From contig WIXG01000042.1 of the NCBI GenBank assembly GCA_009869945.1, forward strand, positions 248,001 through 312,000: a DNA stretch of 64,000 nt, read 5' to 3'. This document shows positions 23,228 to 63,090 of the stretch, piece after piece. The notes below the pieces were generated by a model. It was given only the letters and a program-made list of their open reading frames with translations, searched no databases and had not been told where the DNA came from. Source of the stretch: Mesaphorura yosii. Taxonomy: Eukaryota > Arthropoda > Collembola > Poduromorpha > Tullbergiidae. Every line of letters begins with the position of its first letter. Within the stretch, counting starts at the first letter, position 1. A program made the position numbers and the translations under genes.

Positions 23228-26200
23228 CTAGAGAACATGAAGATTTTCACAAGATTTTGATTTCGAATTCTGACAAAGTTTCCCCAAAATTTCTTTCGCC
23301 AGATGCAGAGAAAGTGAAGTCCGAGATGAATGAATTTGCTGTTCTTTGTGTCTTTTGCGGCGTCGCATCTGCTTTCTTTGCTTCTCGGTACGAAGCCGAC
23401 ATTGCTTCAGAGTGCCGACCAGTAATTCGTCCACGTTGTGCTGGATTCCGCTGGAAGTCTCAATGAACTTGCAGTCATGAGCACAGGCAAGAGCTTTTCC
23501 TTCTACAAGAAAGTTAAAACAGCCCCAGTCAATAAAGTAAAGTGGGATTTGTAAGAAAACTTCTTCAAACGCAACGAATTTCATTGCATCATCTGAACGA
23601 ATTACGTCAATGCAAGTTATTAACTTTACTACGCATGTTTTCTTGTCATTCAAATGCCCTAAGGATCGTGGTTGCGTGGTTTTGCTGCTTTGCAAATCAA
23701 ATTGCCATTAAGTGGTAATAATTTTAAAATAATTAGATTAGTTTTCTAGCTGAAGTTAAGATAGCACGGAACAGAGAAAACTGTGCAAGCATCGTCTGAG
23801 GCTGCGGAAAGCAAGTTGGCATTGAGTCTGGTAAGTCGCAGGAGCATTCTAGTTTTCTACTGAAATTGTTCAAATCTGGAGATCATAAACGCAAAGCCCT
23901 GCTTAGGTGAATGTGTCTTGTGTCAGCGATTGTTTGAAATTATTGGAGTGGGCGCTGTTCACTTGTTATACGGCATCTGGATTGTATTACTGAGTCTGTT
24001 TAATGTACTCATCAATGGTATAAAGTAATGCGCAATACGGACGCAGAAATAAATCGCTTTGTGTTTTCGCACTCGCACTTAAGTGGGTTCCCAGAATTTG
24101 TTCAGATATTTGATACGAACAGCACGCGGATGTGAGTTCGGGGCACTTGATAATAAATTAAGCGTGGGATTCCATTGTGCTCTCGTAATTTGCGCTCCAC
24201 AAATAGTTCAGTTATTTACCAGATTGAGGATAATACCTATCCAGTAACAATGGACGGACCGACGGACGCCGCGCGGTGCAGGTATGAAAAATGAGCTCGC
24301 TTCGTTTCTTCTTTCGGGTTTCGTGTTGCTACTAACTACAAACGAGAACAATGGCTCGCAGTTGGACTGCCGCTTTCACTCGTCTGCCTCGTGTTTGGCT
24401 CGCATTCACATTCTTTCCCAACAGCAAGATATTGTTATTCCCTATTTTCATCAAGGGAAATCAAAATCCTTTATTGTAAGGACTCTTGAATTCCCCGAAA
24501 GTAAAAAATGCTGAATGTATTCCATCAAACACAACACTTTACTCAAGAGTTCTGCGAAATAGAGACGACTGTTATCGAAATCGAAGTCGAAGCGAAATAT
24601 TTCCTTTCTGCCTGAACCAAAACATCTGCAAATCCATCTCGCACTCATATTCTTATGAAGTAATGTCTAGTAAAGTTATCCGAAATATGGAAAGCCCCTG
24701 TAAAGACGGAAAATTCAATTCAGTCGCATTCAGACATTATGCTTGCTTACAATTTGCATGTTTTAGATTTGTGTCTGTGCTGATTTCCTGTTCCAAGGAA
24801 CGAAGGAAAGTTTTTCCATTTCGACAACTTTTTATATCTCACATTCACCGAATAGACTGCCGTGTTCAAATTTCGTATCTGTATTCATTTCAGGTAATTT
24901 TATGGCTTCGGCTTGCAGTTCAGAAAACAAGAAAAGCCCCCGTTCTACCTCAATTCAATTCGAAAAACTTTAGTGCGCATTCAATTTTGAATAATAGACT
25001 TTCACTATTCACTGTTTTCACTTGCTTTGTGAGGTCCTGTCTCACAAGCAATTGTTCGAAAATCCTTTGTTCACAGGTCGTGCGACTATATGAGGTGCTT
25101 ATACTTCTGAATTCGTGACAATATTTCCAGGAAAATTGCAGCGTTTAACTTCAATTGTTCGTTTCAAGAATTTAGATGAGTTACCTTGCGGTGTCGTCAC
25201 ACGAGCTCGTGCCAAGTCGCATTTGTTCGCCACGAGAATTACAGCCTTCTCACGAGTAACGCCTTCTTGCCACAGATACCGAAGAATGTCACTGGCAAAC
25301 CGAAAGCTGGAGCGGTCAGTAACCGAGTACACGACGATAGCCGCATGTGGCTCGTACGTCGAGATTGAGTTTTCGACCTGAAATAGCAGTAACATGGTCA
25401 AATATAGTGACAATTCTCATGACAAGCAAAGGCGAAGGTCAATTAGTTAAGGCAGCAACATGCCACATGCTACATGTTTTAGTTAGTAATAATAATCATT
25501 ACGACTATGACGTCCGCTATCCGCAACGCTTGCATGATGAGTCTGAGGATGTACATAACTACTGCAAACTTTTTTCCTCTTTCAGCCGACTCTTTTCGTG
25601 GTTTTGTCGTTAAATTCCAATTTATTTCCAATCAGTGCCGACGAAAGAGTTTGCCTTTATCTCAGACTTGTAATCCCGTACTCGTGCTCGTGGCTTCGCA
25701 AGAAACCACCCAATGCCAGAATTAAATAAACTGGGAAAACTAAGCCCTCAGATTATTATGTCCTGAAACAAGTGACGAAAGCTCTACGCTCGTAATATCA
25801 CGAGTAAACAGTAAATGCACAAGACAGAAGGACATACATAGCATTCAATAGTAGAGAATATGGTACGTGTAGAACAAGAAATCATGACTCAGCATCACAA
25901 GAGCAAAGCGAGCTGACTGAGACTGACGCACGTTGCCTAAATGTCAACATTCTCGCTGGTGCATGCTCCTGTACCAAGCCGTACTGTACTGTGCGGTGGA
26001 CTTTACAGATTGCGTGCAGGTTCGAATGTCGCGTTCGCGTAAACCATGCACAAAAATCAATACAGTTTCTTACCGACATCTCATTAGTGGGATGGTCAAT
26101 CAAAACAAGCTCCGACTCCTTCTCCTCCAACAATACGGAAACTGTTCGCTCACCGAATTCGTCATCTGGAAGAAAGCACAGGTTGAGGTCACTTCCATTC

Positions 26201-29200
26201 ACATATTCTGCTATCTCATATATTATTCGAAACAGATCACAAGTTAATGCAAACACCGCATAGGACAGCAAATTCATTTGGTTCAAAACCACGAATGCTC
26301 ACCGCATGACTGCACATTCATTAAAAGTTCATCCTTTGAATCGCCACTATTTAACTCCAAACGAGCTTTGATTTTCCTGTTACATTTTGTTGAATCTTCT
26401 CGTGACATCAAATAAAAATCAGTGTGACTCTTTCCCATTCCGCACCGTTAAACTTGGAGATGAAAGGAAAGTAATCATGCACTTAGCTTTGATGAACATG
26501 ACTGTTCACTGTTCATGGTTGTCATTCAGATTTGTTACAGTCGAACTTTTATTTTCATGTCACATCCGCGAGCGAGAATCCTGTTTAATAGGCTGGTGGC
26601 TTTCACGTAGGGCTTTCAATTCAATGAACTACTTTCTCCTCTTTCCTGTCCGTGTGGAGATTGGCATTGGCACTTCCCCCAAGGTCGTCCTGATTTAAAA
26701 TCAGGGAATTTGTCCTGAACTAGCTCTACTGGCTCACGAAAGTGGACTGTCCACAATTTATGCGAGTGTCCCTGAGGTGCATTAAATATTCACTTGGCGT
26801 CTCATTGAAGTACAACTCCTTGACCAACTGGCTGGCGTCTGACCAGGGAGATACTGGTTCTGTTCACTCCAGAGCATCCATAGTCGCACTCCATCTTACT
26901 CATTGGGTTCATAAACGATCATTTAGGAGCTCGTGAGAGTCGTCTGGAAAGGCATGAGCATGAGCACCATAATAATCAGACGATCTCTCATCTCATTCAA
27001 GCCAAGAGCGAAATCTTGGAATCATTCATTGTCGTGTCCAGATTCTGACTAGAATACAATATAAGCTCCTTGATTCCAAGAATCTCACTGTGCTCGTACC
27101 CTGCCTATGTGATCTTGTTTGAATACAGACGCTGATGGCAGGTAATATGATACACAATGAACTGTAAAACATAATCAACAATGTCTACCGTTCACGTCCA
27201 CGGGCATGAATACATCATGCACGTCATGTATTCTGTACTGCCAGTGACAATGCAACGAAGATGAATGATATCACTTTCTTCCCCAAACTCGTCGCGACTG
27301 CGACTGCCACTTTCTCTTCACATTTCATATCAGCGCCAGAATTCGTAATATTCATTGGCACAGCTTTGAACTAGAAAATAAGTAGAACATGGAACTGGAA
27401 CACTCTTGTCGGAGGTTTCTTTACAACGGGCAGATAAATTATTGTTAACAATTCTGCTTCATGATGGTTGTGGCACAGCCGCCTGCAATAAAGAATAACC
27501 CGCGTCGTGTTTACATGCCTACAATGTCACGAGCTACATTCACAAAAGAATGCAGCGATGCAGTATAAAAAGCGGAGAAATAAGGACAGGCCACGAGTAT
27601 GAAGCACTGTGTCGTGCGCTTAGAATGTGTGCCATAAAGCTACTGCATTGCTACTGCTTGCTACTTTCTTCACGGATCATAAATCTCCAGCAGACTGTAC
27701 AGCCTTCTATTCCCATTTACGTTCAACGCAGCTCGGCTCCAAATATCAATTTTACCTTTCCAATGTCGTATGGAAAGGAACACATATGTAGCGAAATGGA
27801 AATTTTGACGTGGCGGGGGCCTACATTGCAAAAACTGTAATAATAATGGTAATAACACTTTCTCGTGTTTTCACTCAACGAATCGTACTGCACTTTGTAT
27901 TGCTAGTGTGGCTTGCTCGCTCATTCTTGACGCACTTTTATAAAGCTGCTTGGCATTCGCATTGTTCGTGCCGCACTCGTGATACGAGAAGCACGATACG
28001 GACAACCTTCACGAGGAAATCCATGCCGTAAAAATCTCAGGTCCGCATACGCATTGTAAAGTGAAAGACCATAAACTTTCTCTCTCGTGTTCCTTGACCT
28101 GGAAAATTTTATGCGTGCGAGCATGCTTTGCTATTCCATGCTTCCCTTCAGGTGCGGGTTCAGGTTCGCCCGGTTCGCTTGCTGGCTACGGCCATTATAA
28201 TTATTGCCCACACGTCGCTACACATGTTCCAATTCCCACTCGCCTTCAAACGCTCGATTTCACTACGTTTATCTCCCGCATTCATCAATCCTAATTTTTA
28301 TTGTGTCAAACCTCCATCAACATGATTGAATAACGTTATAACATAGAAGTGTGAGTTTATCGCCAAGTTCGCTTCAACTTTTATGGCTTACACGGTTATA
28401 CTTTTGGCCCGGAAACAGCAATCATAAATTTTGATTTGATTTTCATGGTTCTGCGGCAAACGACCTCGACATGGAGCAAAGAACAACTTACCCAAGGAAA
28501 CGTCGTACGTGTTGATGTACTCAGAAGTCAGAAACTGCTGTAGAAGAGAAGATTTGCCAACGCCAGACGCTCCGAGCAAAGCGATGCGAAACTTGTCCAT
28601 ATTGTGGTTCTGCTCGTTGGTTTCATCGTCGGATGAGACCGCCGAGCTGCCGCAACATGAACCATCAAACGGTGATCTCTCACCGCTCAGGTTGCTTTGC
28701 CTGTGTGGATCGGGAGATGGAAATTTTAAATTAAAATTAATGGCACGGGCTTCCTTCAACCCACACTCATTAGCCTCACGTAAACTCGTTAGCTTAATAT
28801 AATGAGCAAAGGTACGTTGAAGAAGATGAGCCAGGATCAGGTTGCTCGTTTTTTACAACCAAATTAATTAATGCCATAACTCTTCTTGGTGTGTGCATAC
28901 ACAAAATGCTCACATTTTGACAAGTTTAAGGTTCGCATTTTGCAAGGTGAAAGCAGACAGACGCCGAATTAAGGAAGCCTGAAAGCAGGTATTTTTAATG
29001 GAAGTCTTTTCATACGAGTCTTGATCGGGCCAACACTCGTTGCTATTTTGTTTATCATGTTATTATAAAATCTCATTATTTTTTGTACATCAAAGGCGCA
29101 CTAAAAATCAAAGTTTTCCTCAGAAAATAAATTATGACATGAAATTTCACTGGAAAATGTCTACTCGTGAATTGCGGTAATGTGGTTATGTCATTATTCA

Positions 29201-32200
29201 CCTGCTATTCGGAGAAGACGCCATGCTGTTATTCGATTTCGATCTTCTCGGAATGAGCGCATCACCACAGTTGACAACACCTTTGCTCGTGATATGAAAT
29301 GTGCGTAGCCGATACAGATCGTCCCGCAGACCCGAGCGCGGGTTGTAACCTCCTTCAGGCAAACTGCACACGCGTGGCCGAACATGCTCCACAACTGGAA
29401 TGAAAAACATCGAGAAACTAATTAAAAACAGTTCTTTTATTAAGCAAGCATTACTTGAAGCAGCTTATTTTCACTGCCAACTTCCACGTGCGTGAGTAAT
29501 TTGCTGATATAAGGAATCTTAAACTGATCGCAGTGTCAGCAAAGACGAAGTGGAGCTAATGAGACTCTTTTGAAAGAGGATTCTGACAAATGAACAAGAA
29601 ACGCAAGCACGTTCGGCCTTAGACAGTAATTATCCCGCGAAAACGGTTGGCTTCCAAGAACGTTTACTTATTAAACGCTGCTGACTTTGTTTTTGAAAAG
29701 AAAGAATTTCCTCGAACTTTCTTTGTTGTCGCTGTATGGTATATGCTTTAAATAAATTTCAATTTTCTATTTTTCGAAAATGCCAATCATGTCGGTTCGT
29801 TTATTGCACAACCTTGTCAGGTACCTACCACAGCCAAATTGGCCGACTTCAACAAAATTGGTATTGGTTGTGCCTTTCTCTTTTTTTCCCTGGAGAACTC
29901 TTTCTGGTTTCAAATTACACCAACCAACATCCGCCACAAGCGCTTGGAGGCAATAACGGTGTAGTAGTAAGAAAGACTTGAAACGTGCACGGTATAAGAA
30001 TTTGAAGCGGCCAAGATTTCTTTTCTCATCCAGCTCAAATGAGAGAAAAAAGGAAGAAAGTCTTAAAAGATGACAATGATCGAGTGATTTAAAGATGAGA
30101 CTAATCCTAATGATGGATTTAAGATGGAGAAGACTCCATAAAAAACACATTTCAGCCTTAGCAGAATATTTCGATGAATTCTTTTTGAGGCCAGGTGCAA
30201 GAGACAATGGGACAAGTACTAAGCGCGCTTCATCAATTATTCGCAAAGTGTCCATGAGCTGGACTGGGAAAATCCTTCCAGGCAATTTTTAATCCAGAGA
30301 TGTCTTTCTTCATTGTGATAATCCGCTTTCATTCATCAGAATGTACATCAACACAAGGAGCCTAACGGAGGTTGATCACGAAAACCCCCGTGGAGGAATT
30401 ATCGCACATGCTCGTTTTCGGTCGCAGGTAAATTGAACAATCATCTCCTGGCCAGATATAATCGTTGACAGAATTATATTCCAATGGGACCACACATGGC
30501 TTGTCCAGGTTCAGGCTCAGTTCAGGTCGTGCTCATAATTGAAACAAATGTTTCTTCGCAGCGAATGTGGAGGGAAAATGTGCAGCCCGGCGGGACGAGA
30601 CTCGCGAATGACGTTGACGTTGACGTCAGCCGACCCGCGCTTCGTGTGGGATCGCCAAAGCACATTGTCTTCATCGTCTTAAATTTTAATCTAAATGGAA
30701 AACTTTGTGTTGTAAATTAAATTTGGATTTACGAGTCTATATTATCGTGAAGCAGATAAAGTAAGTACAGATTGAAAAATGCGCCGTCTTACGATCGCAT
30801 CTCTCGCAAATGAGCCTCTTGAAATTGGTGCCTTGCGTTTATTCTCCGTTCGGAATCCCAATTCGTAGGTAAATATTTGTGAAGTCGAGCAAGTCGGAAT
30901 GTAATTTATTAAAGTGCTATTATAAAAATTGGGTACAGAATCGAAGGCAAAAGCAGTGAGGGAAGAGATCTCAAGTTTATTCACTTAGGCCTATGACGGA
31001 GTGGAAAATTGAAAAAGGCAATTTATGTCCGAGTGAAATGAATAAAAATTGTAATTGTTTCTCTGTAATGAAGTCTCTTGTTTAGCTTAGTTCAGGTTTC
31101 TTCATTTGATTATGCAAATAAAATTTGGGATAGAGTCCACGGTGCGGAGGCTGAGCAGCTTTTGCATCTGAGTCTCATTGATTCGCAACCTTTGAACTGT
31201 ACTTCAAATTCAAGCTCGTTCGCATTTCGCATGTTAAAACTTTCAAACTTTCCAAGTATGCTAAAATTGAATTCCGTGTTTTGTTTGATGAGTTGGCGCA
31301 CTGGCCTTTGGCCTGTGGACAGGATTTGGCGATTTAACCGTAATTAAGAGAGAAAGCATTTTCTCGCTCATGAAAGCAATCATTTTCGCTAAATTCTTCC
31401 TGCAGGCTACCAAATCATCTACCATGTATGACAAAGAATGCTCTCTGAGAGCATTCTTCACTGTGCTACAAAGTAATCCCACCAGACAGCTCAGCAAGTG
31501 AAAGTTATTTAATTTAGCTACGCTATAAACACAACCACATTCGGCAACACATGCAGGGATTACAGTATCAGTTCCACAGCACAGCGGAGTGCTTTGGCCT
31601 CAATAGAGAAAACTCACCATGCGTGCACTGCATTAAATGAGCTCGTTGGAGATAATGTATGTATTCAGTTCAGTGATCGCGTTCCGCTGCGTATTATAAC
31701 ACAAAGGGAAGGACAAGAATTCTCCAATGCGTATTTTCTCTTATAAATATTCATGAATATAAATATTTTTTATCATTCTTTCGTTCTAGCGCCTTCGGGC
31801 AGCATTAACGCATATATTATGAAGTTGCTTTTTTTCGCATGAGGGACTCCAGCGCTTGATTCTTTATTGTGTCGAGCTTTGATGTGCGAAAGTGAGAAAT
31901 TCATCTTTCACTTTCATTTTCCTCATTTTCGTGGTAAAAATCGTAGTATCATGCCAAACGAGGCGAAAGAACTCCTTTTGGAGTTAAGTAAATAATATGA
32001 GACTGGGTTTTCCGTGAGTGGAACTGCATTACCTAAATTGCCGTTCTTTCTCCTCCAGAACAAACCGCGCTGCATTCTATTAACTGTTTGCGTTTAGTTT
32101 CTGTTGCAACATTTATTACTCGTACGCCTCTTTCCATTTTAACCTACTTTCCTAGCTCAAGTGGAAATGACATAGCCCTGCAAATTTCTATTTCTTCATC

Positions 32201-38424: not shown

Positions 38425-41400
38425 CTACAAGACGTGAAGGTTTTCACATGACTTTGACTTTGGATCGTTCAGGCAGAGTTTCTCTAAAATTTCTTTCGCC
38501 AGTTGAAGTGAAACTGATGTTCTTCGTGATGTCCGCTTTCGAGGCTCTTTAGTTTTATGCTTCTTCAGCAATTCTTTTTGCAATTTTTCATCATGAAGAC
38601 GACACTGTTTCATAATGCCGACCAGCAGCTCGTCGACGTTGTGCTCTATTCCACTTGACGTTTCAATGAATTTGCAATCGTGAGTGCAGGCCAGACTCTT
38701 CCCTTCTGCAGAAAGGAGGTAGTGACATGTTAAAATATTCAGCGTACATTTAGAATTGCAAAATTGTAAAATGCTCAATGCATACCTTGAGAAGTTACGA
38801 CGCGAGCGCGGGCCAAATCACATTTGTTCCCAGCAAGAATCACGGCTTTCTCTTTTGTAATTCCTTCTTGCCAGAAGTACCGCAATATTTCTGTTGCACA
38901 TCGAAAGCTGGCTCGATCGGTGACAGAATACACAACAATGCATCCATGAGGCTCGTAAGTTGCGATTGAATTCTCGACCTGGAAGAAGAATCACAATTTT
39001 TCAATTTTGTAAGTAAGTAAGCGGCTCATTAGGTAAGTTTCTGAAGTGTGAAGTCAGTCATCTTCCTAGCTTTAAAACTTTGAAAGCCCTTTAAGTAAGG
39101 GACTAAATTATTGATGCTGTCCTAGCATGTTGAACCAGACCTTGAATGAATTATGTATCAAGGCAGGTATCGAGCATGGTTCAGCATCTCGCTTCTCGTA
39201 TAACATCCCGGAAATTAAATTATGCATGCATGCACTTACCGACATTTCGTTCGCCGGATGATCAATGAACACGAGCTCAGACTCCTTCCCTTCCAACAGC
39301 ACGGAGACTGTCCTTTCACCGAACTCATCGTCTGAATAAATAATAAGTTGTGAAACTCAGATCATGTTCCACTTCAACCTTCATTTTCCGGAATCCAAGA
39401 GCTGAAGCCACATTTCCTTTGTCTTATCTTATCGTATGAAATTCCAGTGACCTTTCAAAGCCTGATTTATTTGTAATTTTTAATACTATATTATGTGTGT
39501 CACATTTCCCGTATGAGTGTGAGCATTGAATTCAGACTTCCTCATCTGCTTGGATTAGATACACGACTTTCTCCTGAAACTCTTTCTCTTATGATTTCAC
39601 CGTAGTGAAAGCGCTGCACAGAGCCATGAGCATATTTGAGTCGTAACACTGATAAATTGCAATCATCTTCCTGATGGTTTGCATAACTTCGTGGAAAGCA
39701 GCGCTTGTTAATGCACTTGTCTGTTTTACTTTTCCGCTGATTCAAATTTATGCTCAGCACTACGACTCAGGTATGAAAACACAGTCGGCGAATGAAAGAA
39801 AATGAGTTTTTTCCCTACGACTGCACTGTGAGATTTACGAGTGCATATGCTGGGCCAGTAAATCCTTTTTATGCATTGTTGAAGTAATATCCTTCATAAC
39901 TGAGTTTCACTCTTTCCATTCATTGCTTCATGGCGTGTGTATTGCCGTATTGCGTTTTAGTTTTAGTGATGTGTATTTGTTCAGCTTCTTTTGCTTCATT
40001 TTTATAACGAATGATAGTTGGCAGGAAATCAGTTTAGCTATGCTATTTCGATTGGAATCAATAATCCCTTACTCCTACGTATTTCACTGGCACTGGTAAA
40101 CAGGCTTTTGTTCTTTGACCCGAAGGCTTCGCAGTTCGTAAATGCCTTAAAAGACCAACGAATCAAGTACGAAATGTCGAACAATGCCTACCGCGATGCC
40201 TGTCTACCGTGAGACAAGCATAGAATTCTAAATTTTGTTTACCATATCTGCTGTTTTTATTTACATTAACATCTTGGGTCGTCAGCCAAGAACTGGGCCG
40301 ACTATCGTCTATGCAACGTCTATCATTAATCTTCCTGCGCTGCGTCATTTGTATTTACAGCGCAGGCAAATAAATCCGTGTCTGGGAGGATTTCATGCAC
40401 ATTTCACACAGCCTCTGCTTACCTAACGAAGCGTCGTAAGTATTGATGTACTCGGATGACAGGAATTGTTGTAGGAGAGAAGATTTTCCAACCCCCGCGG
40501 CTCCAAGCAAAGTGATGCGAAACTTTTCCAAGCTTACGCTCTTGTCGATATCGTCTTCATCTTCCTCGTTACCATCTTCTGCGTCTGAGATTGCCGAACT
40601 GCCGCAGCAGGATCCTTCGAATGGAGACCTTTCTCCGCTTAAATTGCTCTGCCTGTTACGGAAAACCAATTAGAGAGTTTTTTCGCAATTGTTAATAATG
40701 CTTTGATACTCGGTACAGAATCTGACCCAAGTTTGCATAAACTTTTTTTACTTCACTGTTTTCGGTGCTACTCAAATATTTTCGTTACTCACCGACTATT
40801 TGGTGACGAAGCCCTGCTGGTATTTGACTTGGAGTTTCTTTCGACAAGTGAATCACCACCATTGACAATACCCTTGCTCGTGATGTGAAAAGTGCGAAGT
40901 CTGTAAATGTCATCACGGATTTGGGAGCGTGGGTTGACGGGCAAGCTGCTGACTCGTGGACGAACGTACTCAATTACTGCAAGCAAGCAATTATTCACAT
41001 TAATGGATGTGTTACTTCCTCTACTACCTTCGTAGTCGTGCTCTGATCGGAGGTGGAGGGTCGGGGTTAATAAATTGATTTCATGAGAATCAGTGCCTTA
41101 AAATGTAAATAACTCATTACAGGTAATGAACACCCGAGCACTTCTCCGCATCCGAACACATTATATCATTCATTGACGGGGTCGTTCTGGAGATTAGAAA
41201 AATGGGAAACCCACCCTCCAAAACCACTTCCTTCTTAATAAGAGCGAATGGTCACTCTGTCCGTGACAGAAATAAAGCCCACCCTCTTTCTTTCTCGGGC
41301 TTTTCCCACGGAGTGGAAAAGTAAAGCTAGTTAATATTATAGAGACACTATTCACGAATTGACTCCGGAGTATCTCCAGGTGTTAATTCATGAAGTTTGA

Positions 41401-44653: not shown

Positions 44654-47600
44654 CTACAAAACGTGAAGGTTTTCACAAGACTTCGACTTGGAGTTTTGCA
44701 AACACAACTTGCCCAAAATTTCTCTCGCCAGATGCAATGAGATCGATGTTTTCGAAGCGTGAGTGTGAATGTGCTTCTTCTTTTTGTGATCCTTCTTGCT
44801 TCTCTCTCGCCTCGATTTCTCGTCTCGAAGTCGACATTGCTTGAGTATACCAACCAGCAGTTCATCGACGTTGTGTTGAATCCCGCTGGAGGTTTCGATA
44901 AACTTGCAGTCGTGGGCGCAGGCGAGGGCTTTTCCTTCTGTAAAACAAAAAAGGTGAACGAATGAGTACGTTTTCAATACTTCAGAAGTTCATTTTCATA
45001 ACCGAATTAAAAATTAACTAAGCGCATAGCTTCAATTGTCAATTCATTTATACAAGGGACCAGTGTAATATATTCTACGAGGAATAAAATTGAATTATCT
45101 CAGCCCAGCATGGATAGACTTTATTTCAGTGCAGTGAAATGGAGCGAGTTCTTTCCTTTCACCTGCACTTTCTCTTGCCTGAATCTTCCTGTCCTCTTTC
45201 TCCTACTTTTGTAACTAAAAGCAAAGCTTTTGGGATGTATTCACTCTCAATTCACCTGCTCCTTTCGGAATAAGAAATTCTAAAGAGAAACATTTCCATT
45301 CACATCCGATTTCGGAATTAAACGCTGCTTTCACTCATGTCGTGCTTATTGCATAACTTCCAGGCAGCTTCTCATTTCCCTTTAATTGTTCATGGGACTG
45401 ACATTTGAATCATTGAAAGCGTCCGGAGAAAAGCATAAGCACCTCATATCCTAAATGCATTAATAATACATGAGTGGAAAATCTGAAAATGTGGCGCTGC
45501 AAGAAAAGGAAAATGGGTCAACGAAAGTGACTTCTGACACACACGCGGAGGCAAAAGTTTAATTGAGCGAGACAGAGTCAGTGTATAAATCAATCCAATT
45601 AGTATCTCCACTCCAAATTCCAACCCATTCAGAATCGAGTGTGCATTAAATTTGAAGATTGCTTTTGTTCCAGCATCACCGCCCATAACCCGCTCAGATC
45701 TTATGTTATTATACGTCAGCGCGTCGGCCGTGGTATTTTCATGTCTTACTCACAATTCGAATAGCCACTCATCTCTGTGAATGGGTTCGCTGTGATTTTA
45801 GTGAATATCATTATCCGATTTTCGAGGCAGACATCAGAACACTTCTCTTGTTAACAGGAGCATTCACCGGCGAAGTGTACAGTCGGTATTGTCAAGTTGC
45901 ACAAGTTTTTAACATGGACGAAAGTCTAATCATCCCTGGTGATGGTGTCTGGAGAATGCACCTAGATAAAATTTCTAGACGAATCTGTAGGAGGGAGGAC
46001 TGTCTAACGATTCGAACTTCGTAAATGTTCAAGAGCAGTAAATTATAGCATATGCATGAATCGAGGCCGATTAAGATTTGATACGTACGACATGAAAAGA
46101 GACAGAAAGAGGCCAGAAAAGTTCACGCAATTCAGAGTGGATGAGACAAGACCTGAAACGTCAACTTCAATTTTCTTTTCTCTAAATCAAATACGGAAAG
46201 ATGTGAAGGTTGAAGTTCAATGGCCGTTCTTTGTCATTCTATAGTGTCGCATTGGCTGAGAAGATGAAGTCAAAACAGACATCACATCGATCATCATTGT
46301 TGCGGCCAAAAGGGTAAAGTTACAAAAAAATATTGGACACCCGAGCACTTTCAGAGCCATTGAACTTGTCTTTGTGTGAGTCCATCATGGGAATGGAACA
46401 TAAGGCTAGGAACGAAGACTGAAGACTCCATCGCGTTCTTCTACAGTCTCAATTGAATCAACGCGAAACGACCCTCCCAGCAAACGAAGACGGTTCCGTA
46501 GCTTTGTTCTGCCAGTTCTCAGTTTAGTAACTTTGTTTTGCTCTCTCAGTACAATTTAGTAATTATTGCTTCGGAAGTGCTGAACTTATTGACATAAAAT
46601 TTTCTCGACGAGGGATTTTCAAAAGCCAAAACAAGTCACCGGTCAGTGCCCAACGTTCGGGATCTACTATTACGCTGCCTCGTGGTCTTTAGCTGAGATC
46701 GTCCAGTCGCAATTAACGCTTACAAGTAAGTCATTTTACTTTGGCTGAAGTTGACGGCAATGATTTAAAAAGAAAGACCGTCAAACCGTTGATTGCAGGG
46801 CTCTCACTCCTTGCAAGACCAAGATGCATATTAAAGAAGTGACTGTCAAAGGGTACAAGAGCTACGCCAATAAAATCGTCATTACTTTTCAACCTGGGCT
46901 AAATATCGTCGTTGGTCGCAATGGTTCAGGAAAAAGCAATCTCTTAACTGCACTGCAAATGATCCTGGCAGATGAAGAAAGCCGGAAGAAAACCCGCCAA
47001 TCAATGCTTGCTGCCCAGCCCATTGCTGCTAATGCGTATCGAGGAGAGCCAGGCTACGTGGAAGTAATATTTGATAATCTGGATGGCTTTTTCCCAGAAG
47101 ATTCGACGGAAGTGTCATTGAAGCGATTCATGGGAGGCAAAAAGGACAAATTTTTCATCAACGGAAAGCAAGTCGAACGTTTTGACAAATACCTAGCGCA
47201 AGTGGGTCTGGTGACTCCGTACGCCTTCGTACAACAAGGACGTATCAATCAACTGGCAACGATGAGCGATAAAAATCGATTTGAACTGATGCGAGTAGTT
47301 TGTGGAGAAACTGGTTGGAGCAGTATTTTGGGTCACATCTCTAAAGTCAGACATGAATCACAAATTCTACTTGTGGAGGTTACAGACATCGTGAAAGGAC
47401 TAACTTCATTAAAATCCACATTGAAGGAGCAAGTCATCCAATTAGCAAAGTACACCGAGGAGAAAGACAACAAGCAAGCTGCTGAGCACGTTTACTACTC
47501 CCGAGAATTGTCCAGAATTCAAACAGCGCTAGCAACATTGACAGAGAAGAAAAATGTTGTGATTGGCAAATTGAGCCAATCGAAACACAAATTGGAAGAG

Positions 47601-50600
47601 TACAACGGAAAGATTGATAAGATGAACTTACGATTCTCACGAATCAAAAGAGAAGAGAAACGAATCAAGACGGAAATCGAACTTAACCAAGCAAAGGTAC
47701 ACAAGTTGACATCAGAAATTGGCCAATTGGAAAATATATGTAAAGACTACGAAAACAGTCAGTCGGCGCAACTTAACGATACAGGAATGGATTCACAACA
47801 TGCTAAAATAAACTCTCTTCAAGAAAAATTGGAAAAGATTGTGGCCAGTTATGAAAAGTATGAGAAAATGGCCGACGACCTTGCTCAACAAAGTAGTCGA
47901 GAAGAAATTAAGATCACACAGCTAAGCGAACTCATGACTGAGATTAAGGGAAGCGGCTTCAATACTGACAGTCAGTGGAAGAAGTACGTCCAGACAAAAA
48001 TGGGACAACTCCAAGAATTGCAAGCAAAATCAGAAAAATCTGTGACTGAAGTGCAGACGTCAATTGCTACATTGGACAAAATGATCGAGGATAAGAGGAA
48101 AGAAATTGATATTCTTAGCGAAGAGAAGCACACACGGATCAAATCTGTTGAGAAGATCGTGGCTAAAATTTCCCAGATCGAAAACGAAAAGCACAATCAC
48201 GAAGCCGAAAAGCAAATCAATTTGCAAAATTTGGTCTCCAGTGAAGAGAAGGTCTTCACCATCACCGAACAACTGGATCATCATCACTTAAAAATGAACA
48301 GACCATTCGGGGCTGCTGTAATGGGAAGTTATCAGGGCATGAAGAGAGTTTTAGAGTCGCTGAAACGCCAGGAAGACTTTGAGTCACCAGTAGCCTTTGG
48401 TTATTTTGGGACTGTCCTGGAAAACTTAACCTGTGATAACGGTTTCGAAACAGCAGTTCATGTCGCAGCGGGAGCGAAACTCTTCCACCATATTGTTGCC
48501 ACCGATTCAGTTGCACTCAAGTTGCTCAAAGAATATAATCATCTGCAATGCCGCTATGAAGTGAAGTTCATCGCATTGAATCGACTTCTCCAAGAAAACT
48601 TCGACTATCCTGACGACAGTCATACAAGCCCGCTGATTAAACATCTTAAGTTCAATGAAACCGTGAGGCCCGCAATGGAATTTGTTTTTGGGAAAGTACT
48701 CCATTGTGTGACGTCAGAAGTTGCATCAAGATATGCAAAAAGTTGCAAGCTCACTTGCGTCACCTTTGATGGAGATAAGGTATCCTCTTCGGGGGTTATG
48801 TCAGGTATGAAGTCGACATTTATCCAATGCCTTCCTTAACAAAACTAAATATTTCGATTTCGCCCTTGAGTATGAGTATTGTGCTTTTGACAGGTGGGTA
48901 CCGTGACAGCTCTGTAAACATAGTTGGACTAGAAAATGAAAGACGAGCTTTAACAGAGAAGATTAACAAATCGAAAAAGGTGCTACTTGATTTCAAGAAG
49001 TCAGTTGAAAATGGCAGTACTACCACCCTAGATCTAGCTAAATCCCTGGTGAAATGCGAAACACAGAAGGCATTTGAGAAGTAAGTCAAGAAGCCGTTTT
49101 GTGGTTTCAAGATAACGTCAACGACTGCGGCTGCCTTGAAACCACGATTTTAAGGAACTGGATAACTTGCTGAATAAATTAATTTCATTACATCTAGTGC
49201 TGAAATTCAAAAAATCATGAATGTGAAGAAGGCTCGTGGGGAAGAATTGAAGAATCTGGAACGGAGGCACGATGGAGAACAATTAAAACTGCATCGGTTG
49301 AAAAAATCACTGGTTGCAGCAATGGATAACATTAAATATTTCAAGCAGCTTACTGATTCGGGTGCAATGCCTCAAGTCAGCGCAGCGCAGTTCAACAAAT
49401 TGAGTGCGGAAATGAAAACGAAGCTGTCTAACCTGAAGGATTGCCGTGCGAAATTAGAATCGATAAGAAAGAAACGTGTTATATTGGAAAGACAACTGGA
49501 AGAGGCGAAGACGTAAGTTCGGAAAGTGAACTTTTCGTAAATCGCAGCATTTTTTATTGTTTCTATTTCTCTGCTAGATCTGAGCAACTATCCGAGTCGT
49601 ATATGGCCGATGGTTCGGCCTTACCAAGCATGAGAAATCTTCTTAGACAACAAGCTGAACAAAAAATTAAATTGATGACAGATTCTGTTTTGACTGTGCA
49701 AGATGAAATCCATCAATACCAGAACCTACTAGATCAGATTAAAAATCAGGTATTCTAAGACTTTGACTTTGCTGACAACTCATGCAACTTTTTTTTACAC
49801 TTGCCATTTTCTGCGTTTCAGACTGTCATGGACTCACAAAAGTCGGGAAAACTTCACGAAGCCAGTAATGTGCTGAAGGAAGAAATTGCAAACACTGAAA
49901 GGGAACTCAACAAACTGCAGGAAACTGCCTTTGAAGAACAGAATAAGTACTACAAGACAAGTGAGTTTTTACACAAGATTGGGGCATACCCTGCTGGAGC
50001 ACCTGATTATTCAAAAGAATCAACATCTCGCCTATTCAAAATTGTAAAAAATGCCAATAAGAATCTCAGCAGTGTCCAATGCATCAATCACCGAGCGAAC
50101 GAGCAGTATGAAGATGTGACAAGTCTTCTCAAAAAATCTAAGGAGAATGGGAAGTACTTTGAAACAGTGTAAGACATTTAACGATGCATTACGCACCTCA
50201 TTTACGATAATTTATGTAGTTCCACTGATTTGCAGCGAAAAGCGAATTACTGAACTACTGGATGAAATCGAAAAGAAGAAAAGTGCAATTTGCATTGACA
50301 CTGTAAGGACGGTGCAAGAATCATTCCGGAAAATATTTCAGGAACTGGTTCTCAAAGCTAGCGGAATTCGCGGATATGGCCGATTTGTCATGCACGGTGA
50401 CAGCATCGAGTTCACAGAAACTAATCGCTTGGAAGTAAGCTTTTCTTAAAATTGTTCTTTGCAACTCGTGTCACCGTTACCATATACCTAATCTGCTGCT
50501 GTCTAGGACGGAGAAAGATGGTGGGAAGATAAAGAGTTCGAGGGCGCTTCACTGAAAGTGAGCTTCAAAGATTGGGGTGATGAGCCAATGCAACTGATTG

Positions 50601-53600
50601 ACATTTTGCAACTTTCTGGTGGCCAGAAGTCGATTGTGGCATTGTCGTTTCTCTTGGCCGTCCAACATGCAAATCCTCAGTGCTTGTACGTGTTTGATGA
50701 AGTTGATCAAGTAAGTTGTGATAAGAGGGTTTAACTGCAAATTAACATGATCTACTCAGTTAATTTTTTCTGCTCAGGCACTGGACCCGTCCTACCGTCA
50801 GGCAGTCGCGCAGAAAATGAAGGAGCTGTCGAACAATGCCCAATTCTTGTGCACGACTTTTCGGAAGGAATTTGTGGAATATGCCGATTCGTTCCTAGGT
50901 GTCAGTTTTCGCAATCAGGTAACCACTATTTTGTTATCTTTCAACAGTTTAAGCATTCGAATTTTTTATTTTGAATGACATGATTGAATTTCCCGCAGAA
51001 ATCACAAGTTCGTCCTGTCACTCGTGAAGAAGCTTTAGATTTCGTTCAGCCCGAAAACAGCGACTTATCAACACCTGGCTTAGATGAATCAATCCTTACA
51101 AGTTCTGGAGAACCGGAGCAAAGAGGAAGTAGCAGTAGCTTCGAAGCTAGAAATGGGTGACGAAAGACTCGTCGCATTAATTAGGCAACTAGCCAAGTTC
51201 GATTTAATTCAGCTATACTACTTCTGTTCCATTTCTTAATATTTACCCTTGTCAGCTTTTCTCGGTTAATAATTGGAAATTATTAAAAACACACAATCCT
51301 TTGTTTTCTCTTGTTTCTCTGATGTCTTGTTTTCGCGTATTTTGAAATCAATTGAATAAGTTGAGAATTCTCTTACAGCAGTAGGGACAAACAGAGAAGT
51401 GAATGTGACAAGGACACACTTCCAAAACCTGAATTCCTTTGAATAAGCTGTATCGACAGGTGACATTTCAATGTGTTTCGCAGGTAGACGCATATACTTA
51501 TTGACTGTTTGGTCTATTTTTAAAACGCGACATGTAGATTTGATTTCCTAGCTCCATTCCGACGTTTTAGTCTATCCACCCACGACAATGTTACCCGGCA
51601 CGACGTTCTTGCGTGGATGAGCACGGCGCAGCACAGCTGTTCTGACAGGCTTGTTCATGTACATATCAAAATCATCCTGGTTCTATCGAGTCTTGTTTTG
51701 ATACTTCCCAATTGAATTTTGTTTTTGATTTCCAACTACTAATTACAAGAAACCTTTTTTTTGGGGGGGGGGTATGAAAAGACCAGAAAGAAGGATCCTA
51801 AGTTTTGTGGACAGATTTTACATTCGTTCCATTCAAACGCTATCTTTGTTTCTTGCTGCGTCTTTGAAGTAGTACAATAAATTAAATTCGCAAGTTTGAT
51901 GCTAAAAAGCTTGAGGTCGCAAAGAGAGATTTCTCCAGTTTTTCAATCGCGCAAGATTAAAGACTCTGCGGTTCACCTTACCTTGAGTGGTTGTGACTCG
52001 AGCTCTAGCCAAATCACATTTGTTCCCAACCAAGATCACAGCTTTCTTCTGTGTCATTCGTTCTTGCCACAAATATCGGAGAATTTCACTTGCTATTCGG
52101 AAGCTGCTGCGGTCTGTGACAGAATATATCACAATGGTGGCATGTGGTTCGTAGGTCGCGATTGAATTCTCGACCTGTGGAGAAAAATGCGGTGCATTAT
52201 ACAAATTAGATTTCGATCTTGATAACAATGAAAAGCTACAAGCATTGGTTTTCGCGATTGTGACAGAGTGGCAGATTGGTTCAGAAATTCTTTGTGTCAC
52301 TGATATGTGATTTGTGATTTTTCACTGTGAAAGGTCATGCTAAGTGCCAACAACCTGAGGCTTTCTTCAGATGCAGTTTCTCTTCAATAATATTAAGTAC
52401 AAGAATCAATAACTATAAATAAAGATGTAAAAATAGATGCAAATGCATAACAAAATGCATAGAAATTCTTCTTCTGTTGGACAGGAAAGCTTGCAACGAG
52501 TATGGCCACCGGAATAAGCGAACAAGACAGAGTCCACGAATGGCGAGCCCATAATAAACTTTTGATGGAAGTAGCAAACAAAACTTTACTCGTCTCGACA
52601 TATTTATCTTTGAATATTGTTCCGCCCAATCATCTGCACCTGCACGTCTGAGCACAACTCCAGCCACACCTGTCCTTGCAAAGCATTACTGTTTAGTGTG
52701 AAGTACAAGCAAGATCGAAGAGGCGGCGAGTCGAACTTTGCGCTTAATTTGGAATCTTTCTATGGTCGTAACAAAGCGGAGTTGTTTTGCCTATTGCTAT
52801 TAAAAACTATTCTACGCAGTGTGCAGGTTGCGGCCAGGCGCTATTTTTACTATTTTAGCAAGCCTTGCGTTTGATCGCATCATAACATTAGTGGAAATCA
52901 TCACATGCAGAAAGTGGCAGAGGCATCACGTCAGGAATAATAATATCTCCACCTCAAAATCATCAAAGTCTCGGTTTTCGGTTCCAATTAAAAGCGCTCC
53001 CGATCTCCGGCCTCCAAAAACCGAACCATAAAATTTTAAGGTGTTTAAATTTAAATAATAATATACTGTATGCATTTCAATCACAATCACCGTCCTCAAC
53101 CGTCTCGAGAATGTAGAACGAGACCTTAGACTTCAGACTCCAGTTCCAGACATCTGTTCGTTAAGTTCAATCCAACCCCGCCAACGCTTCAGCCTAATTC
53201 CCAATTTCAAAGTTCCTAGGTTTCTACTTCACTTTTGTAATTCCGGAAACGTTGGAACGCCAGGGCTTTCACACCGGTTGCCCAAATGAGCTGAAACTTT
53301 CACCATAGATCTGGAATTTCATGAGTTTTCCAGTAGTGTGCTCGGTTTTGCTGAAGCACTCTTGGTTTGGGCTTTGGATAGGGGATAAATACATACTCCG
53401 GACCCTGTATGCCGTGTCTAATAAACGCTAAATGCAACCGTCTGCTTTGCCTCAACAAGAAAATCCAGGTCCGGCGAAGAAAACCCACACGGAAACTGGG
53501 AAATTGGCCATGCCATAAGGCTAACCTTCACCATTGAGCAATAAAACAAAGCAACAATAAAAACGCTTACAGTGAGGTAGTTACCGGTACTTAAATGTTA

Positions 53601-56600
53601 GGAAACACTGGCACGAAGATCGTAAAGCAGGAACTTACCGACATCTCGCTCGTTGGATGGTCGATAAAAACCATCTCCGACTCCCTGTTTTCAAGAAGAA
53701 CTGAGATGGTCTTTTCTCCAAACTCGTCGTCTGAAAGCCACAAACATATGAATTTAGTGCCTTTTATCGCAAGTCATTAGAATAAAAAATTCACGTCGAG
53801 AATTGATTGCCTTCCTTCACCCGCCCCTTCCGTGCTCTAGTAAATACGCGCTTTCTTTCTTCCAATGAAGTAATTTGACAAGCGCACGTTTGGCTGTCCA
53901 TTAAATGGCTGGTGTTCCTTGTGTGCTACGCGGAATCGGAGGCACAAAAATTTAATTTGGCCCGTGATCGCCAAGTTAACTTTACAACACGTTGGAACTG
54001 TCGAAGTTGAAATACGGCGGTGCTCGGTGTTCGTGCAGCCTTCGTCATGATATGAAAATTTATACCTTCATGAAAGCGTAGGATCGTAATGATTTGCAAA
54101 GGTCATCTTGTCTCTGTACACAAGTGCCAGTTTTAAAGCACAGCGATGTAATGATCGACGCTTACGCAAGCAGGAAGCGCGTAAAACACGTGCCTCATAA
54201 AACGAGCACTAAAAGTAAAAGCAGGCTCATGGCTGAATAAATGTAATTAATTATGAAGCAAGTCCTTAAAAATTTACAGCTCTTCTTTTTATTATTGTTT
54301 GACTTTCACCGTCAACCAATAATACAGCACACACAACTCCAAACACACGAAATAAGGCCCAGCAGCTTAACGTAAACGTGCACCACGTGTAATCGTTGAC
54401 CTACGCTTAGCAATGCAATGCACACGTTCTCATTAAAATTCCGGAAATTAAATTCGAGGCAATAAATTATTATAATTACGAGTACGAGATGGCAAAAGGG
54501 CCAGGTAAAGTGTCCGGAACTTTTCTCAACGTTGAGTCATTTTGTCTTGAATTAATTAGTGCGCACACGATCTGATTAATTGGACCGAAAAGTTAATGTT
54601 ATTGGACACGGTTGCAAAAGTTTGCAACTCTTTGAATTTTTGACTGCAAAACGTACAAAAGTCTCTGTTAACTTTTTTATGCCATTTCAAGGTTGCACTT
54701 GAAAGAACTTTGCCCTTTCTGCGGGGGAAATTATGTTCATGTTCATGGTTGTACTTTAAATTAAATTAACGTAAATCTTGACTTGCTTCTGAGAATGCTC
54801 AGGCAGAGCTGAACGCTTCCTCTCCGTGCAATCTAAAGTTGAGGCTTCTTTTGTGCACTGGAAGTATTCGGGAAAGGATAAGCTAGAAAGTTGACACAAG
54901 CTTTGATTTGAACCACTTGAAAGTTTCATCTTTTCATGCTCTCATACTTCAGAACCGGTTCTTGAACGTATCTGCTTGAATTCTTTTGTCCAAACTCGAA
55001 CTCTCAAAACGAGTAAAGAGAGCGAAATTTAAGGTGAAATTCTCCGCCGCAAAATATGCCACGCAGGATAAATAGCAAATCAGAGCGTAATACAGCACAG
55101 TTAAGGGAAAGCACGAACCGTTGATTAAACGGTGAAAGAATGATGACGTTTTCAATTGTACGAAATCTTCCACTGATGAGAGAGCGTGCTGCATTATCTG
55201 GTCTAAGATCTAACTTATCGTGCTCTAAGATTTAGTGCAGCCTACCGGTCTGAAATAGCCTAAGCAAGGGTGAAAGTAGTGACTATTGAGCAGTCGAAAC
55301 TGATACGGAATACGTCTATTATTCAGCATTGACCTCATTTGCCACGCTGTGCTGTAAATACAGAAATGTCGAATGTATATCGTCGAAATTCGAAGTACTT
55401 ACATCAAAGGAGGTGAAACGTAAAATGAATGAGGAAAGGCTTAGGCTGGGAATCAAAGAACTACAAGAAGTGATGATCACAGGTTGTTGTCGTAAACTGT
55501 CAGACACAGCGGATACCACCCGGGAGTATCGAAGCGTGTGCCAACAGTGAATGAAGGTTTAAGTTCCCTTTTAAGTCAACGCAATAAAAAACCTCAATGT
55601 GATATTTGCCGTTTCTTGCAGATTTATTGTAAAAGCCATCATTCTCTGTACAATTTCCACTAGACCCGTGACATTTTTTCGAGGCAAGGCTAAAGTTCAC
55701 GCAACATTTCCTCTTTCGAACGTTAATATTCATAATTCTTGAATGAATGAATTACTCTGCCCTGCCTTGCCTCTGGGAATACTTTCCTTTGTGAAGGACA
55801 AAACACTTGAATGATTACTTTTCCTGTTGAGGTCACAGTTTAAAGTCTGTTTTGATGATGTTAATGTAAAATTCGGCCATTGTGCTCGATCTCTTTGATG
55901 AAACCCATTCCCGTTGTAGCCCCGAACTTGCCACTTGTAACACCTGCGTCATGTCAGCCCATTTGCGTAATATGAAGTGTACGTATCGGTTTTGGGTTTG
56001 CTTTGTGTGTTTACATACTTCGAATTTGCAATCAATCAAATATGCGGGCCTACCTAATGAGGCGTCGTACGTGTTAATGTACTCAGAGGTCATGAACTGA
56101 GTTAACAACGATGATTTTCCAACACCCGATGCACCGAGAAGCACAATGCGATATTTCGCTAATCGGTCATCGTCTTCTTCGGATGAAATGGCCGAACTTC
56201 CACAGCACGAGCCTTCCAACGGCGACTTTTCCCCGCTGAGGTTGTTTTCTCTGTAAATAAACCAGGCAGGGAGTCAGGCAAAGAGTGAGAGCATTCTTGT
56301 GAGAGAGAAAACGCGATTCAAGCACTCACCTGCTGTTTGATGAAGCCATGCTAATGTTTGATCTGGATCTCCTTGGAATAAGCGAATCGCCACAGTTGAC
56401 GACGCCTTTGTTCGTGATGCTGAACGTGCGAAGTCGATAAATGTCATCATGCAGGCGTGATCGAATATTGTAACCTCCTTCGGGTAAACTGCAGACACGT
56501 GGGCGCACATAATCAGCAACTGCAAAACCATGGAATGACAATTATTATGCTCTGCCCTTCAAGGCTTCAGTCAGCCTTAAAAGGACCTCGTAAAATGTCT

Positions 56601-62600: not shown

Positions 62601-63090
62601 TTCCGCGACAAATCATTTGACGTGAATATTGCAAATCTCTTTGGCTTTAGCCTTTATCTGAACGTTTTGGAATAACTCAACTAAAAAGAGTTCATATTAT
62701 GCATAACTTACCAGGCAATTCGAGGAAATTTGATTGTCTTCTCTTCGCCAGCCGGTACGATGTTCTTGGGCTTGGTGTGGGCAGTGGACTCGTGTCACCG
62801 CCCGTGTGCGTCGTGGATTGCGATTCCCTCGAACTCTTACGCGAAGCCAGGAACGCTAATTTCCCTCTTGGGCTGATACAGGGCGAGTTCGGGCGCGATG
62901 CCGCTGCCGACGAAGGAGAATGTAAGGGTGAGAGCGATGATTCAACCGGATTTGTTGATCTTGATATCAAGGAGCAGTCAGCCGTAAAATCTGTGGTGTC
63001 CGTGTAGTCTGAGCTTCCGGAGACGCCCGTGGAAGATTTCCATTGGAGAGGTGTAGGACGAGGTCGAGGATGTCGCCTTCTTGTGCTCAT
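44654..63090 (-). CDS. Rgk: RGK-family small GTPase, tandem copy IV (six exons, 444 residues) hosting SMC3 in its last intron
   Basis: Exons in transcript order: A 63090-62712, B 56519-56330, C 56250-56054, D 53730-53639, E 52174-51982, F 44937-44654, in the same phases as the other copies. Exon A begins MSTRRRHPRPRPTPLQWKS and ends RRQSNFLELPG. The P-loop GASGVGKSS is at residues 229-237; the G3 region is FIDHPTSEMS; the G4 box GNKCDL; the G5 box ETSSGIQHN. A strongly basic tail (KKDHKKKKHIHTH) likely aids membrane binding, and the protein ends SKSCENLHVL. Intron 5 is 7.0 kb and encloses the complete plus-strand SMC3-like gene, while intron 1 (6.2 kb) holds a candidate small secreted-protein gene. 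Exon F can only belong to this copy, since copy III has its own exon F and no other RGK exons lie between 44937 and 51982. The frame is open upstream of 63090; the start was set by similarity to copy II. Confidence 0.9.
46480..46823 (+). promoter_or_regulatory. probable 5' UTR and promoter of the SMC3-like gene, with a 5' UTR intron
   Basis: A good donor (CAAGTAAGT, intron from 46726) and acceptor (GATTGCAG, to 46798) define a 73-bp intron, followed by 25 nt of leader before the ATG at 46824. Initiator-like CTCAGT strings lie near 46518 and 46546. No TATA box was seen, as expected for a housekeeping-type promoter. The transcription start is not fixed by the sequence. Confidence 0.4.
46824..51160 (+). 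CDS. SMC3: SMC3-like cohesin subunit, divergent, nested in an RGK intron (nine coding exons, 1235 residues)
   Basis: Coding exons 46824-48804, 48894-49080, 49198-49512, 49578-49749, 49822-50168, 50236-50434, 50507-50710, 50778-50918, 50999-51160; introns are 65-117 bp with GT/AG ends. Length fits SMC3 (about 1200 residues). SMC3 pairs with SMC1 and a kleisin to form the ATP-driven cohesin ring. Seen: start MHIKEV (SMC3 MYIKQV), Walker A GRNGSGKS (31-38), Lys-Lys at 106-107 in GGKKDKFF (the ESCO-acetylated pair), Q-loop VQQGRINQLA (136-145), first coiled coil to about 480, hinge about 490-660 with FETAVHVAAGAKLFHHIV, second coiled coil, signature LSGGQKS (1103-1109), Walker B LYVFDEVDQALD, and CTTFRKEF near the end. 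It lacks the conserved REVAGTRVYDER stretch after the Q-loop. The loop before the signature motif is short. It is probably a fast-evolving paralogue, possibly with a germline role; that is inference. Confidence 0.93.
51282..51287 (+). terminator. possible poly(A) signal of the SMC3-like gene
   Basis: ATTAAA, the common variant poly(A) signal, about 120 nt after the TGA at 51158-51160. No AATAAA is closer. Confidence 0.3.
51755..51772. repeat. T8-G10 homopolymer tract
   Basis: Eight T followed by ten G in the gap between the SMC3-like gene and RGK exon E of copy IV. Such a tract is prone to length change and sequencing error. Confidence 0.8.
53731..56053. other. intron 3 of RGK copy IV
   Basis: 2.3 kb with no supported gene or repeat. 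Intron 4 of this copy (52175-53638) is also featureless. Confidence 0.45.
56520..62711. other. intron 1 of RGK copy IV
   Basis: 6.2 kb, the longest first intron of the array. Apart from the candidate secreted-protein gene at 59536-60108 I see no gene. A plus-strand frame at 57781-58068 looks mildly coding but has no start context, partner exons or domain. Confidence 0.45.
59536..60108 (+). CDS. candidate small secreted protein nested in intron 1 of RGK copy IV (three exons)
   Basis: Exon 1 59536-59647 begins with a strong signal peptide: MPALNTIAQFAF, then LLSLLLLLIATATFA, likely cut before KSKTGK. A donor GTGAGT follows. Exon 2 ends at 59962 before GTAAGT and could start at 59747 (acceptor CTGAG) or 59825 (acceptor TTCAG); both keep the same frame. 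Exon 3 is 60041-60108, ending in TAG. The product would be 131 or 105 residues, with a basic C-terminal half including VQTRFCKRTK and final NNCR. AATAAA lies at 60408-60413. Three phase-compatible exons with usable splice sites and a signal peptide make a gene plausible, but nothing in the sequence resembles a known family and the model rests on splice reading alone. It would be transcribed against its RGK host. Confidence 0.4.

Follow-up and report, generated by a model that had tools for sequence, protein, structure and literature searches.

An intact and fast-evolving second SMC3 gene very probably lies antisense within an intron of a whole RGK-type GTPase gene in the collembolan Mesaphorura yosii. 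Both genes are contained in a 64-kb window of the genome (contig C42:248001–312000), which we analyzed together with the remainder of the 93-Mb draft assembly of 1127 contigs. The coding exons of the SMC3 gene occupy positions 46824–51160 of the window on the plus strand, wholly inside the single 7044-nucleotide (nt) intron, 44938–51981, that separates exons E and F of the minus-strand RGK copy IV. The reading frames and splice sites of the internal gene and of its host are intact, and a canonical SMC3 is present elsewhere in the genome, on contig C44.

The nested gene has nine exons separated by eight GT–AG introns of 65–117 nt, and its frame is unbroken over 1235 amino acids. Exon 1 (46824–48804) contributes 660 codons and one base and encodes the N-terminal ATPase head, the first coiled coil and the hinge; its stop-free run of 660 residues compares with a longest run of 138 in 1000 base shuffles read in one frame. 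The remaining exons are much shorter: exons 2 (48894–49080), 3 (49198–49512), 4 (49578–49749), 5 (49822–50168) and 6 (50236–50434) are followed by exon 7 (50507–50710), which carries the ATP-binding-cassette (ABC) signature LSGGQK and the Walker B motif YVFDEVDQ, exon 8 (50778–50918), which carries the D-loop ALD and the end of the C-terminal head, and exon 9 (50999–51160), which ends in a stop codon at 51158–51160.

The host belongs to a set of four colinear RGK genes on the minus strand (8230–63090), each with six exons, A–F, in identical order. Spliced alignment places the exons of copy IV at 62712–63090 (A; the model starts at an ATG, and the true 5′ end may differ), 56330–56519 (B), 56054–56250 (C, with the P-loop GASGVGKSS), 53639–53730 (D), 51982–52174 (E, reading VENSIATYEP..NKCDLARARVTTTQ) and 44657–44937 (F, with the stop codon at 44654–44656), the last falling between exon A of copy III and exon E of copy IV. 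The Ras-like core of copy IV finds its best matches in the Protein Data Bank (PDB) among GEM, REM1 and RAD, and its C-terminus, KSKSCENLHVL, ends all four copies, in keeping with the conserved C-terminal motif that RGK proteins have instead of a CAAX box. Core and motif together place copy IV in the RGK family. Here, the four copies are linked and their N-terminal exons are long, and no vertebrate subtype is assigned to them. In the G3 region, where RGK proteins have DxWE in place of DxxG, copy IV reads FIDHPTSEMS, with DxxG absent and no literal DxWE.

The E–F junction, CAAG/GT...AG/(A)AGG, has the same position and phase in 4/4 RGK copies, and we therefore reject a false call of either exon. 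In copy IV, exon F is preceded by a good acceptor and is in the correct phase, and between copies I and IV it shows a proportion of nonsynonymous differences (pN) of 0.134 and of synonymous differences (pS) of 0.81. By these marks, exon F is intact and constrained, and is homologous and in frame in the four copies. Because exon F has these properties, and because no other RGK terminal exon emerged when the E–F intron was scanned for motifs in its three minus frames, copy IV is very likely spliced over the nested SMC3 gene. The sequence-only reading that preceded this work had proposed the same arrangement, and its coordinates for the intron and its nine-exon, plus-strand SMC3-like gene hold to the base, with one adjustment: the range of 44938–51981 that it gave for the gene is right for the whole intron, and the gene proper is 46824–51160. 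Its assignment of exon F to copy IV agrees with the position of F in four colinear six-exon genes and with its low pN, whereas the alternative last exon that would have undone this assignment did not appear in the minus-frame scan. The sizes it gave for the equivalent minus-strand introns were likewise correct, at 2568 nt in copy I (8520–11087), 1682 nt in copy II (23503–25184) and 80 nt in copy III (38706–38785); no intron in any of the four RGK models is longer than that of copy IV. The E–F intron of copy III, only 80 nt, lies at the same site as introns of 1.7–7 kb in its sister copies.

The nested protein is a member of the SMC3 family. Its best PDB match is human SMC3 (E 2.4e-111 over residues 1–1201), followed by other SMC3 entries, with bacterial Smc (1.4e-33) and SMC2 (3.8e-26) far behind; Pfam recognizes SMC_N (7.5e-42) and SMC_hinge (9.4e-19). 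Walker A, the Q-loop region, the ABC signature, Walker B, the D-loop and the hinge are all retained. A KKD at residue 106 aligns with human residue 105, and thus keeps the lysine pair K105/K106, the acetylatable pair of human SMC3. Where human, C44 and fission yeast SMC3 agree, the nested protein keeps 28 of 45 hinge residues, and it keeps 44 of 62 C-terminal head residues identical in these three and budding yeast, a count in which part of the human sequence is provisional. Nevertheless, overall identity is just 29.6% to the canonical C44 protein and 26.6% to human SMC3, as compared with 54.1% between human and canonical, and in the coiled coils identity to the canonical protein falls to 16–22%. 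Strongly altered parts include the loop that follows Walker A and the head-neck segment, where kleisin binds in cohesin. The head-neck segment, conserved elsewhere, reads VAGTRVYDERKEES in human SMC3 and VCGETGWSSILGHIS in the nested protein, which has not kept it. By the other tests the protein remains a member of the SMC3 family, but we do not file it as the canonical cohesin subunit. The intact frame and motifs of the nested gene suggest that it is under constraint, and low pN suggests the same for the RGK host.

The canonical gene on C44 is a very different copy. It has 22 exons by spliced alignment, with 21 introns in the coding part, and its product shares 54.1% identity with human SMC3 over the whole protein and 85.5% in the N-terminal head; its first 690 amino acids match human SMC3 in the PDB with E 4.3e-248. 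The sequence-only reading had pointed to a genome search for a second, canonical SMC3, and this gene answers that search. Its interpretation is thus supported in part, and the nested gene is a divergent paralog rather than the conserved SMC3. When the genome was searched for the nested protein, 13 matches were returned; nine of these fell in the window, three on C44 and one on C325, and no third SMC3 was seen. Genome searches with SMC_hinge and SMC_N gave at least seven loci, on C592, C143, C325, C61, C65, C44 and in the window, a lower bound since in one of the searches 13 of 56 first-look candidates were scored; neither SMC5 nor RAD50 was recognized among these loci. From their reading frames, rather than from a search, we take C592 to be SMC1, C143 SMC4 and C325 SMC2. 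The N-terminal pieces of C61:229584–233958 and C65:238649–239239 both match SMC6 best in the PDB. A single Rad21/Rec8 locus (C425:46203–48331) and a single STAG locus (C255:19684–20013) were found, in a search that exon-split or very divergent relatives, such as a divergent REC8, could escape. With one SMC1 found, no cohesin core subunit other than SMC3 was seen in duplicate.

A conserved SMC3 accompanied by a divergent, long-branch second copy has precedent in Daphnia pulex and Anopheles (Schurko et al. 2009, PMC2680839), and the nested gene is perhaps a paralog of the SMC3B type, by likeness to that published description. As far as the available text of that study goes, D. pulex SMC3B resembles the nested gene in having fewer exons than the conserved copy and in keeping the hinge and both ATPase heads; the conserved SMC3 has 21 exons in D. 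pulex and 22 here, and two SMC6 genes in D. pulex compare with two SMC6-like loci here (PMC2680839). By contrast, the same text makes no mention of nesting in D. pulex, and it describes extra SMC1, REC8 and SA genes, (PMC2680839), where we find SMC1, Rad21/Rec8 and STAG at one locus each. Two SMC3 copies are also reported, in the accessible part of the source, for the sawfly Neodiprion lecontei (PMC13239252).

The introns of the nested gene record part of its history. None of the 12 canonical introns before canonical codon 603 is present, whereas the stretch that holds the remaining nine canonical introns contains all eight nested introns. Those preceding exons 2, 3, 6, 8 and 9 match the canonical gene exactly in alignment column and phase; that before exon 7 has the same phase but is one column off, in a gapped region; and those before exons 4 and 5 agree in phase and order only, being 23 and 17 columns off in poorly aligned coil. 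Five or more exact matches are expected by chance with P 2e-10, and under random loss of 13 of the 21 introns, the probability that all eight kept introns fall within the last nine is 4e-5, with the two loose matches counted as kept. Variant positions given in the accessible text of human studies place c.139 in exon 4, c.1431–1466 in exon 15 and c.1942 in exon 18 of SMC3 (PMC8515141), and c.435 in exon 8 (PMC11087815). The 5′ half of the human gene is thus also rich in introns, and the nested gene most likely lost its 5′ introns, rather than never having gained them. In the same human gene, c.1964, c.1997 and c.2111 all lie in exon 19 (PMC8515141), so that an intron near c.1996, common to the C44 and nested genes, is seemingly absent from human SMC3, an observation that weakly suggests duplication after the split between arthropods and vertebrates.

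How might such a gene have arrived in an RGK intron? The route that we favor, tentatively, as the most likely is retroposition of a partly spliced SMC3 pre-mRNA, in which 5′ introns had been removed and 3′ introns remained, followed by insertion of the reverse-transcribed copy in the RGK intron. Splicing proceeds roughly 5′ to 3′ during transcription, and a pre-mRNA caught midway would therefore lack early introns and contain late ones; insertion of such a molecule would give the observed pattern in one step, at a new place and in either orientation. Like semi-processed retrocopies, the nested gene is at a new locus with some ancestral introns precisely absent and others kept. Known cases, as far as the accessible sources describe them, include rodent preproinsulin I and a TMF1 insertion in reverse orientation in intron 1 of CYBB, which comprises exons 1–8 together with intron 7 and a portion of intron 8 (PMC4151081, PMC3449122). 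The nested SMC3 differs from these in lacking 12 introns in a row and keeping eight, and in being old and intact, with no poly(A) or target-site duplication recognized. An alternative that we regard as a real possibility is that the whole gene was duplicated into the intron at the DNA level and its 5′ half was later converted by cDNA, which would have removed 12 introns at once. Five 3′ introns that coincide with canonical introns in column and phase, and a contiguous 5′ loss of the kind that one conversion tract would leave, would both follow from this history. On the other hand, cDNA-mediated intron loss usually favors the 3′ end of a gene, and comparison of the nested flanks with 9.9 kb around the canonical gene gave only short matches (best 28 nt, E 5.5e-4), a result that age could explain by erasure. 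Against the E–F introns of RGK copies I and II, too, the nested-gene flanks gave only short matches, the best being 19 nt (E 0.007), and a search of the 64-kb window with Rfam returned no match at the gathering score.

Several observations weigh against the account of a constrained second SMC3 that arrived by retroposition. One intron in the 3′ half, canonical intron 18, is missing from the nested gene, and a separate step is needed to remove it. Repeats were sought within each flank, and short, weak ones were found, with no poly(A) trace or target-site duplication recognized, marks that age would erase. D. pulex SMC3B has 14 exons in the published description (PMC2680839), as against nine here, and, if the two are orthologous, some of the 5′ loss came later, which weakens the case for a single retroposition event. 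Quartet trees conflict on the age of the duplication: the whole N-terminal half and the C-terminal head group human with canonical SMC3 (support by resampling of estimated log-likelihoods, RELL, 0.69 and 0.86), whereas the N-terminal head plus hinge groups canonical with nested SMC3 (RELL 0.85), so that one of three data sets unites the two collembolan copies, all with long branches. The nested protein keeps only 49 of 98 N-terminal head residues and 17 of 73 coil 1 residues that are identical in human, C44 and fission yeast, and its function may be reduced or different. Finally, both the E–F splicing of copy IV and the expression of the nested SMC3 are predictions from sequence.

Other explanations would remove the second gene, its function or its nesting, and each fares worse. 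High divergence, above all in the coils, is what a decaying pseudogene would show, but 1235 codons without a stop or frameshift, eight GT–AG introns and ATPase motifs preserved despite that divergence make decay improbable. The nested gene is full-length SMC3 by its domains and best match, and could in principle be the only SMC3 of the species, relocated; this idea is scarcely credible, given the far more conserved 22-exon gene on C44 and the low identity of the nested protein to that copy and to human SMC3, and the C44 gene rules it out unless C44 is a contaminant. The host could instead be broken, with exon F (44657–44937) detached, copy IV ending in some other last exon and SMC3 lying between the two pieces. 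An intron of 7 kb, longer than any other in the four RGK models, fits such a break, yet exon F shares its terminal KSKSCENLHVL with copies I–III, has the right acceptor and phase and a low pN, and has no rival terminal exon by motif scan, all of which leave detachment improbable as well; a foreign origin of exon F is rejected on the colinear exons, the junction and the low pN. A draft of 1127 contigs could also contain a chimera that placed an SMC3 block in the RGK intron. We consider this highly improbable, as the nested gene is present once in the assembly, fits between the exact exon ends of one gene, and has a base composition resembling that of the rest of the window.

In the account that we favor, splicing of the RGK pre-mRNA would remove the 7-kb intron and join exon E to exon F, and the nested SMC3 would be read from its own promoter on the opposite strand. 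The nested protein probably still forms an ATPase head and a hinge of the SMC3 type, and could associate with the single SMC1 found. The alterations in its neck suggest that it binds kleisin differently and serves in a specialized cohesin, perhaps in the germ line. SMC3 is usually seen as the invariant subunit of cohesin, with variety arising from SMC1beta, REC8 and STAG. A bolder and, as a whole, unlikely proposal is that one retroposition event gave rise to a long-lived second SMC3 in which the ATPase was kept and the kleisin-binding neck rewritten, producing an alternative cohesin by exchange of SMC3 alone, possibly switched off where the RGK host is on. If this were true, an alternative cohesin would be defined by a swap of the SMC3 subunit only, in a genome where SMC1, RAD21/REC8 and STAG were each found at a single locus. 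More modestly, a diverged but intact extra SMC3 alongside one kleisin and one STAG locus offers a good place to study what a second SMC3 does, and the mosaic of introns points to a route, by retroposed pre-mRNA or cDNA conversion, for copying a long essential gene into the intron of another.

Nesting itself is an ordinary arrangement of animal genes. Nested genes on opposite strands are common in animals, and the internal genes are often duplicates inserted in introns (Assis 2021, PMC8467205; PMC3192792); in Drosophila, transcriptional interference between nested genes has been linked to divergence of expression, according to the accessible parts of the same sources (PMC8467205, PMC3192792). 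The nested SMC3 resembles these cases in being a duplicate within an intron on the opposite strand, and contrasts with them in spanning 4.3 kb with eight introns of its own. In a limited search of the open-access literature, we found no title describing an SMC3 gene within an RGK gene. Nested genes and additional copies of SMC3 are both of known kinds; it is the arrangement and the half-intronless structure that are worth recording.

The RGK array looks like an old expansion in which all copies are maintained. Between pairs of copies, counts over exons C–F (A and B excluded) gave pN of 0.07–0.21 and pS mostly of 0.69–0.89, with the lowest pS, 0.52, in exon E of copies III and IV. With pS near saturation, these values do not reveal whether SMC3 arrived before or after the array formed. 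The 'neuronal or muscle-type' role attached to RGK genes comes from vertebrate members, and its basis lies outside the present analysis. The B–C junction of copy II (28492–29394) is unclear, as the model there includes an additional 24-nt exon and relies on a questionable donor, possibly from a miscopied seed. Elsewhere in the genome, a Chitin_bind_4 search gave 66 cuticle-protein matches, as befits an arthropod, with a cluster at C314:8569–85317; two of the matches lie on C42, at 235342 and 238790, approximately 9–13 kb before the window.

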